This document shows positions 44,860 to 47,116 of a stretch of DNA of 64,000 nt, in pieces. Source of the DNA: Erysipelothrix sp. HDW6C (GTDB taxonomy: Bacteria; Bacillota_I; Bacilli_A; Erysipelotrichales; Erysipelotrichaceae); NCBI RefSeq assembly GCF_011299615.1, contig NZ_CP049861.1, positions 1,736,001 to 1,800,000 of the forward strand, read 5' to 3'. The position numbers and the translations under genes are program-made. Position 1 is the stretch's first letter, and each line of letters starts with the position of its first letter. The notes beneath the pieces were generated by a model. It saw only the letters and a list, made by a program, of their open reading frames with translations, had not been told where the DNA came from and searched no databases.

Positions 44860-45384
44860 ATGAATCACAAACAAGCAGCCCATGAATTTATGTTACAGTT
44901 TTTAAACACTCAATCACGTGTTGTGGATATGACTTGTGGAAATGGACATGATACATTATTCTTGGCACACCATGCCCAGCATGTCTATGCAATCGACATT
45001 CAAAAAGCGGCAATAGAAGCCACTGAGATACTCACACAGGACTATGCTAACATTACCTTTCTCAATCAAAGTCACGATACTGTTGATTATAAAAAAATTG
45101 CACCTATAACAGGTGCAATCTATAACTTAGGATATTTACCAGGGAGCGACAAAACACTTATTACAACAGCAGCCACAACAATCGCTTCACTTAAAAAGCT
45201 TCTTGATGTTGTCAGCGATTTTATCGTCGTTTCATGCTACCTCAAACATGAGGGTGGTTATGACGAGTACCAAGCTGTAACCGCCTTTCTTGACGCTACA
45301 AATACCTCATACGAGACATTACGCTACGAAACACCGTTAAGCCCGGTAACGTATCTTATTGATTTAAGAAATATGACAAGATAA
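44860..45384 (+). CDS. mnmM: tRNA wobble-uridine methyltransferase MnmM (YtqB family)
   Basis: 174 aa. DMTCGNGHDTLFLA is the SAM loop and YNLGYLPGSDKTLIT is the family signature of YtqB/MnmM, which methylates nm5s2U34 in tRNA. Preceded by GAGGAGA. Its last 29 bp overlap the convergent Nudix gene. Confidence 0.88.
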   Translation: MNHKQAAHEFMLQFLNTQSRVVDMTCGNGHDTLFLAHHAQHVYAIDIQKAAIEATEILTQDYANITFLNQSHDTVDYKKIAPITGAIYNLGYLPGSDKTLITTAATTIASLKKLLDVVSDFIVVSCYLKHEGGYDEYQAVTAFLDATNTSYETLRYETPLSPVTYLIDLRNMTR

Positions 45385-45853
45385 AGCGTTCGCGCTGATG
45401 CACAAGTTCATTAACCATAGGCCGTGGCTTGGCTAATATATCAACCCACTCTTGGGGAGTTTTCCAAACAACTCCTTGAAACCATTCCTGTTCAGAGGCG
45501 GTCCATGCGGTCGCTTCTTTTTTTGTGATTGTACATACAAAAAAATGATGAACAGTGATAACTTCAAGTAAATTGTAACGATTGATTACAGAACCCAGAT
45601 ACGAGTCAATCCGACACGCAAAACCTACTTCTTCAAGCACCTCGCGATGGATTGCAGTTTCAGCATCCTCTCCAGCCTCAATTCCGCCTCCTGGTGTCTC
45701 GTAATGATCACGTGCACCAAAGATATCATCCCCAACAATATGCATCATGCCCATCCTTCCCTGTTCGTCAAACACCAAAGCACGTGCGGTCGAACGAATG
45801 GTTGTGAAACCTGTATTCTCATAATAATAATCATAGAATTCGTTAAGTAACAT
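45356..45853 (-). CDS. Nudix hydrolase
   Basis: 165 aa from the ATG that follows GGAGGG (frame open seven codons further). Nudix box GGIEAGEDAETAIHREVLEE followed by VGF, with all consensus Gly/Glu/Arg residues. Hydrolyses a nucleoside-diphosphate-linked compound; substrate unknown. It is preceded by a promoter, a roughly 100-nt leader and an intrinsic terminator just before its ribosome-binding site, so attenuation is likely. Confidence 0.88.
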   Translation of the reverse strand: MLLNEFYDYYYENTGFTTIRSTARALVFDEQGRMGMMHIVGDDIFGARDHYETPGGGIEAGEDAETAIHREVLEEVGFACRIDSYLGSVINRYNLLEVITVHHFFVCTITKKEATAWTASEQEWFQGVVWKTPQEWVDILAKPRPMVNELVHQRERFILSYFLNQ

Positions 45854-45872
45854 AGGGATTCCCTCCTGAATC

Positions 45873-45976
45873 AAAAAAAGACGCTTCTGCGCCTTTCAAT
45901 GAAGTTGTTGAATCATACAAACATCTTGGGTGGGGGGGTAAAGAATATTTGATGATCAACGAGGTCATCACTGACC
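45873..45976 (-). ncRNA. Candidate attenuator leader or small RNA before the Nudix gene
   Basis: From the predicted start at about 45976 the RNA has hairpin GGTCA-GTGA-TGACC, a linker with C7 and C3 runs, and at its end an 8-bp stem (45877-45884 / 45889-45896, loop TTCT in plus sense) followed by seven U. The terminator lies 5 bp from the Shine-Dalgarno. No known riboswitch class recognised. Either cis-acting attenuator or about 100-nt sRNA. Confidence 0.6.
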
Positions 45977-45983
45977 ATATATA

Positions 45984-46012
45984 ATATTACTACTATATCG
46001 ATGTTATGTCAA
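45984..46012 (-). promoter_or_regulatory. Promoter of the Nudix leader
   Basis: Minus strand TTGACA (46007-46012), 17-bp spacer, TAATAT (45984-45989). Confidence 0.75.
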
Positions 46013-46120: not shown

Positions 46121-47116
46121 TTAGCTCTTGGTTGATTGTCTTGGTGTATACAAGTAGCTCAATTCGATTTCTTTATCATCGACTTCATCGTCATTTAACA
46201 TTTTTGTCAATACACGCATGGATACAGCTCCTAAGTCGTATGCTGGAATTGCGAAACTTGATAAACGTGGACGTACCATTGAGTTGTATTTTGAATCAAT
46301 CAAGCAGACAATTTCTAAGTCTTCAGGAATACTGAGTCCTTTTTCATGCGCTGCATTCATTGCTGAGATCGCTTGGGAGTCTCGGTTTGCAATTAAGTAA
46401 TCAAAACCAAGTGTTTCAATGTTATCCAAGAAGTAGTCGTATGAGCGACGGTACTCGGATGGAATTTCAATGTAACCATGATTCTTCAAGCCCATTTCTT
46501 CATAAGCACGTTTCACACCTTTATTCATTTGGTTGGTTGTGAAATCATTCTTACGGTCTTGAATGACAGCAACTTTACGGTTTTTGTCTTCATGGAGTTG
46601 TTTCATGGTTAGCTCATAAACAGCTTTTTCAATGTCGACATATACGGATGAAATTTGTTTATCAGACATCTTGTTTCCAATAATTACGATTGGGAACTGA
46701 TATTTGCTAAGTTGTTCGAGTTCAGCATCCATTAATTTGTCATTGTATATAATAACGCCATCAACGCGTGATTTGATAACATCATCAATAACGTCTTTGA
46801 TGTCAGTAATACCTTCATTCATTGTGTGCAACATAATGCTGTACTTGTAGATTTTCGCAACATCAATCAAACCATTAATAATTTGACCTGTGTATGCAAA
46901 ACTTGCTTCTGGCACCAACAACGCAATTGTTGTTGTTTTTTGTAATGCCAATCCTTGTGCAATCGCATTTGGTTTATAACCCAAACGATCAATTGCTTCT
47001 TCAACCTTAACCCGTGTTTCTTCACGAACAATCTCAAGTCCATTAATAACTCGAGATACGGTAGCTAAGGAAACCCCCGCCTCTTTGGCTACATCATATA
47101 TAGTAACGCGTTTCAT
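46121..47116 (-). CDS. ccpA: Catabolite control protein A (LacI family)
   Basis: 331 aa, CcpA length. LacI-type HTH at the N terminus (TIYDVAKEAGVSLATVSRVI) and hinge helix YKPNAIAQGLA, close to CcpA. Gene order murC - DUF948 - coiled coil - this gene matches Bacillus murC-ytxG-ytxH...ccpA. With HPr-Ser-P it would bind cre; cre sites are seen at 11883-11896 and 25210-25223. Another LacI regulator is possible but context argues for CcpA. Confidence 0.85.
   Translation of the reverse strand: MKRVTIYDVAKEAGVSLATVSRVINGLEIVREETRVKVEEAIDRLGYKPNAIAQGLALQKTTTIALLVPEASFAYTGQIINGLIDVAKIYKYSIMLHTMNEGITDIKDVIDDVIKSRVDGVIIYNDKLMDAELEQLSKYQFPIVIIGNKMSDKQISSVYVDIEKAVYELTMKQLHEDKNRKVAVIQDRKNDFTTNQMNKGVKRAYEEMGLKNHGYIEIPSEYRRSYDYFLDNIETLGFDYLIANRDSQAISAMNAAHEKGLSIPEDLEIVCLIDSKYNSMVRPRLSSFAIPAYDLGAVSMRVLTKMLNDDEVDDKEIELSYLYTPRQSTKS

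Follow-up and report, generated by a model that had tools for sequence, protein, structure and literature searches.

The 64,000-nt stretch of Erysipelothrix sp. HDW6C DNA analysed here (the window) contains, between a ccpA-like gene and a Nudix hydrolase gene, a short segment that raises a simple question: is it a leader that attenuates transcription of the Nudix gene, or a small RNA in its own right? Both possibilities were put forward in a first-pass annotation of the sequence, which described a TTGACA-17-TAATAT promoter, a GGTCA/TGACC hairpin, a C7 run, and a terminator followed by a strong Shine-Dalgarno sequence. We located all of these elements on the minus strand (Table 1), with two amendments. 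The terminator is present, with its stem at 45897-45876 and its U run extending to 45873, but the stem comprises nine pairs, G-U pairing included, rather than the eight annotated. The C7 run lies in the loop of a larger hairpin that the annotation had missed and whose long stem is the main feature of the RNA. As developed below, we consider it likely, though short of certain, that this segment is an undescribed, independently transcribed small RNA at the level of the genus, whose loop of five to nine cytosines would pair with G-rich Shine-Dalgarno regions.

Table 1. Features of the small RNA locus, in window coordinates
Feature	Position	Strand	Basis or remarks
ccpA-like LacI-family gene, upstream of the RNA	46121..47116	-	own terminator at 46109-46089
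Predicted sigma-A type promoter, TTGACA-17-TAATAT	45984..46012	-	-35 TTGACA at 46012-46007, -10 TAATAT at 45989-45984; spacing 17 nt in 10/10 RNA-bearing species; spacer letters vary
Small RNA gene, three hairpins and C-rich loop	45873..45978	-	fold z, model R2, covariation
Hairpin 1, GGUCA-GUGA-UGACC	45963..45976	-	GNRA tetraloop (GUGA, GAGA, GAAA) in 9/10 species
Hairpin 2, long stem with covarying pairs, bears the C-rich apical loop	45907..45960	-	fold, covariation
C-rich apical loop, contains CCCCCCCACCC, proposed mRNA-pairing seed	45928..45940	-	C-run predicted unpaired
Single-stranded linker AACUUCAUU	45898..45906	-	invariant in eight species, different in G008 and G011
Intrinsic terminator, 9-pair stem plus U run	45873..45897	-	predicted fold
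Nudix hydrolase gene, downstream of the RNA terminator, separate from the RNA	45356..45853	-	Shine-Dalgarno AGGAGGG at 45867-45861; ATG at 45853

The predicted fold of the whole leader (-30.6 kcal/mol) is considerably more stable than those of shuffled sequences (-16.1 +/- 3.0 kcal/mol; z = -4.93), with none of 200 shuffles as good, and the copies found in related species give fold z values of -3.4 to -6.2. The apical loop of hairpin 2 comprises 13 nt, and its C-run, which ranges from C5 to C9, is predicted to be unpaired with a probability of 1.0 in all ten of the species that carry the RNA; a stable hairpin 1 is absent only from the RNA of the species designated G008. The predicted limits correspond to a length of about 105 nt, with a 5' end that would lie at about 45978-45976 and a 3' end within the U run. 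A small open reading frame or leader peptide (AUG GUC AGU GAU ..., with CCC CCA CCC codons) was also considered and was rejected, as the frame is broken in relatives by indels and stops. A mobile-element origin was likewise set aside, as the loop has no exact match in viral contigs and a blastn search of phage and plasmid collections gave no match.

We searched a set of 13 genomes of the genus, including that of the window species. BLAST detected the leader at 83-90% identity in seven further species; in a whole-RNA alignment the copies of these close relatives are 89-92% identical to the window copy, and the eight copies share one fold. In the Nudix coding DNA, compared over its first 330 nt, the same relatives are 68-78% identical, with 18-60 gap positions, and the DNA further upstream of the RNA is essentially unalignable between close relatives. 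A covariance model built from the eight close sequences (R1) finds these at E-values of 5.8e-24 to 1.8e-19, matches that follow by construction, and additionally gave a weak match (E = 0.32) in the species designated G011, located exactly before its Nudix gene. Nearly all letters of the G011 RNA have changed and its plan has been kept (fold z = -5.06): hairpin 1 reads AGUCUA-GAAA-UAGACU, with a GNRA loop, and a 13-bp hairpin 2 whose loop contains CCCCCAUACA is followed by a linker and a terminator. In both deep-branching relatives, G008 and G011, the RNA is largely re-sequenced, with promoter spacing, C-run hairpin loop and terminator kept. A second model (R2), with G008 and G011 added to the training set, scores 10 of the 13 genomes at E-values of 1.3e-16 to 1.8e-6, the two added training sequences scoring 3.8e-8 (G011) and 1.8e-6 (G008). 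In every one of these ten species the RNA occupies the interval between ccpA and nudix/mnmM. Across 273 genomes of the family, R2 produced no convincing match in another genus; candidate homologues in other genera were weak and unconvincing, and two weak R1 matches that we inspected contained no C-run loop. No convincing second copy was found in the genome, and the RNA is single copy.

Covariation was evaluated in two alignments. The first, of eight rows including G011 and G008, was fitted to R1 and therefore leans towards structure; in this alignment 98.3% of cells are standard pairs, a double change (both sides) occurs at least once in 15 of the 32 pairs, and the covariation score of 0.345 lies above all 500 shuffles (0.178 +/- 0.018) and falls to 0.036-0.086 when the partner is slid. 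The second was made with MAFFT only, from the eight close sequences, six of which are distinct. Here three pairs show double changes, a number reached by 87 of 500 shuffles, and seven cells do so, a number reached by none of the 500; the score of 0.154, compared with 0.086, again exceeds all 500 shuffles, and slid versions give 0-0.027. The strongest single piece of evidence is the G011 copy, in which many stem bases are changed and the fold is retained. The first-pass annotation had proposed looking for a conserved, covarying structure in related genomes, and such a structure is indeed found, linked to the ccpA-mnmM interval rather than to the Nudix gene.

In a midpoint-rooted tree of CcpA proteins, several inner branches of which are unresolved, G008 and G011 together form one side and the remaining eleven species the opposite one (support 100/99). 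As the RNA occurs on both sides of this tree, the simplest reading is that the ancestor of the genus had it and that some species lost it later. These observations also bear on whether promoter, hairpins and terminator might have come together by chance in the AT-rich intergenic DNA of the ccpA 3' flank. Promoter-like sites do occur in the region at chance density (14 found, 18 expected in shuffles), and terminator-like sites are above chance (14 found, 4.2 expected); however, the conservation, the covariation and the occurrence of the RNA in 10 of 13 species, from either side of the genus tree, make a chance arrangement scarcely credible. The stretch is, on good support, a genuine RNA gene: structured, conserved, single copy and independent of the Nudix gene. 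Its limits, structure, conservation, covariation and independence all rest on computation.

The local context varies within the genus. In four species (G002, G004, G006 and G009) the gene immediately upstream of the RNA encodes a cell-wall surface protein, and about 5 kb separates ccpA from the RNA; the RNA still adjoins the Nudix gene. The surface protein (L033, L034, L035 and L039), of which about 450 amino acids were read, contains repeated segments, and its ending is of the LPXTG type at least in G002, G006 and G009; in other species ccpA adjoins the RNA. At the other end of the interval, the convergent Nudix (ORF 45356-45874, minus strand) and mnmM (44860-45384, plus strand) genes overlap at their 3' ends by about 29 bp (window 45356-45384).

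The position of the RNA suggests a possible role in cis, in which the leader would sense a metabolite, a protein or a tRNA and let polymerase pass the terminator into the Nudix gene. The terminator stands directly before the Nudix Shine-Dalgarno sequence, with no space for a second promoter, and the Nudix gene is directly downstream of the RNA in nine of the ten RNA-bearing species, even where the surface-protein gene separates ccpA from the RNA; a cis role keeps some room because of this adjacency. Nevertheless, RNA and Nudix gene are uncoupled in both directions. In G008, ccpA is followed by a promoter-like TTGACT-17-TATACT, the RNA (an 11-bp hairpin with a C9 loop, plus terminator) and then a convergent phosphoesterase gene, with no intervening gene on the same strand. 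Both nudix and mnmM are missing from this interval, and no close Nudix relative was detected elsewhere in the genome, an 84% complete draft in which the RNA and its flanking genes lie on one contig. Conversely, in three species without the RNA (G010, G001 and G005), ccpA and its terminator are followed straight by the Nudix gene, so that the order of terminator and then Nudix is not special to the leader.

Structure prediction also argues against attenuation. No competing antiterminator and terminator pairings are predicted in any of the ten sequences, the nascent RNA leaves the 5' arm of the terminator mostly free (0.13-0.32 paired), and the predicted upstream fold is the same before and after terminator formation. 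The first-pass annotation had recognised no known riboswitch class. Neither the window nor six related loci match any Rfam family at the gathering threshold; a relaxed E-value yields only sub-threshold, chance-level matches, none of them to RsaA, RoxS or LhrC. Overall, we regard a cis-acting attenuator or riboswitch as unlikely. The nucleotide-type ligand suggested earlier had no basis beyond the Nudix family name, and the substrate of the enzyme itself cannot be named because the gene product matches Pfam NUDIX and no NCBIfam equivalog above its cut-off.

The other earlier suggestion, a free small RNA, agrees well with the predicted promoter (17-nt spacing in all ten species) and terminator that accompany the RNA wherever it occurs, with the conserved structure, and with the survival of the RNA in G008 without a Nudix gene. 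Such an RNA would be transcribed from its own promoter, would end at its own terminator, and would consist of a small capping hairpin, the long hairpin with its unpaired C5-C9 loop, a short linker and the terminator. The C-rich loop would be the first part to touch the G-rich Shine-Dalgarno regions of several mRNAs, and this pairing would block their translation or alter their decay. We infer action in trans by base pairing from the C-run being unpaired in all ten species, taken together with the C-rich stretches by which RsaA, RsaE/RoxS and LhrC bind Shine-Dalgarno sequences. The downstream Nudix gene, where present, is probably expressed by read-through past the RNA terminator.

To identify candidate targets, we carried out a genome-wide pattern search for ribosome-binding sites of the form GGGGGGTRR before ATG; such sites are rare, and no conserved target emerged. 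Reading 40 candidates from searches with G6 and G5 patterns yielded a few strong matches, each in a single species and before genes for secreted proteins. The best lie before genes for signal-peptide-like proteins in G003 (AGGGGGGGTAATTATG) and G007 (TGGGGGGGTAAAAGATATG, -24.3 kcal/mol); the two do not match each other, and these candidate targets should be taken as leads only. G5 ribosome-binding sites able to pair with the loop occur about as often as matches to a reversed control pattern, with no enrichment, and the complement of the invariant linker finds a full match only at the RNA's own locus, with scattered two-mismatch sites elsewhere. In G003 and G007 (L134 and L135), unusual G7 Shine-Dalgarno sequences (GGGGGGGTAA) that match 10-12 nt of the RNA loop precede genes whose products look secreted.

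We ranked the predicted pairing between the loop and the Nudix ribosome-binding site against a background of such sites from 400 kb of genome. In G003 and G007 this site is a G5 sequence, and pairing reaches -11 to -12 kcal/mol, in the top 4-6% of the background; in G000, G002, G004, G006, G009, G011 and G012 it is ordinary (rank 0.18-0.75). The Nudix gene is therefore no obvious target, and this lack of conservation, together with the two-way uncoupling and the missing antiterminator, counts against the attenuating riboregulator of the first-pass annotation. It bears equally on a dual-function leader, in which a trans-acting small RNA would also set basal Nudix expression, through partial termination or through base pairing between the loop and the ribosome-binding site of the read-through transcript. 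The geometry of the locus and the good pairing in G003 and G007 would fit such a leader, but the ordinary pairing in the seven other species indicates that the feature is not conserved. We consider it improbable that the RNA combines trans action with regulation of Nudix in most species, the cis role having been lost in G008, or that its C-rich loop and linker instead bind a protein or ligand; in the latter case the RNA would represent a new kind of structured regulatory RNA.

If the free-standing small RNA reading is true, the genus possesses a widespread, experimentally tractable small RNA with a clear seed candidate, linked in most species to ccpA, the carbon-control regulator. The locus also illustrates that a promoter, a structured region and a terminator directly before a gene can represent a small RNA gene with a read-through neighbour and not a riboswitch, a layout that matters for leader-based riboswitch hunting. 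In the open-access literature we found no description of this RNA, nor of any small regulatory RNA in the genus, and small RNAs go unmentioned in an Erysipelothrix transcriptome paper (PMC4968806).

Other genera of the family contain units that resemble small RNAs, each combining a CU-rich loop (ACCUCUUCUCCU) with a single-stranded UCUAUCCCCUUAA and a terminator. Two genomes have two copies each (L018:1133-1252 and 1372-1470, L015:638-740 and 1398-1482, all on the plus strand), one copy being located right before a Nudix gene, and a weaker unit occurs at L017:2125-2050 on the minus strand. TTTCACA repeats lie upstream of several of these units; the four L015 and L018 copies have fold z values of -3.9 to -7.2, and the units gave no Rfam match. 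This looks like an undescribed multicopy family similar to LhrC and the csRNAs.

Among known systems, the Erysipelothrix RNA resembles RsaA of Staphylococcus and the C-rich Rsa small RNAs in being independent, in its three hairpins and in its unpaired, conserved C-rich stretch, which in RsaA is directed against Shine-Dalgarno sequences (PMC3961350). It differs from RsaA in that no sequence similarity was detected, in that its C-run forms an apical loop of C5-C9, and in its genomic neighbourhood. RsaE/RoxS is likewise a Firmicute small RNA, with C-rich regions that pair with ribosome-binding sites (PMC4409812); however, RoxS has several such regions whereas the RNA described here has one C-run, and there is no family match. 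LhrC of Listeria, whose CU-rich loops bind the Shine-Dalgarno region (PMC4132741), and the csRNAs of Streptococcus are similarly small RNAs built of hairpin, linker and terminator. Both are present in multiple copies, and in LhrC several sites bear CUCCC-type motifs, whereas the Erysipelothrix RNA is single copy and presents a pure run of cytosines.
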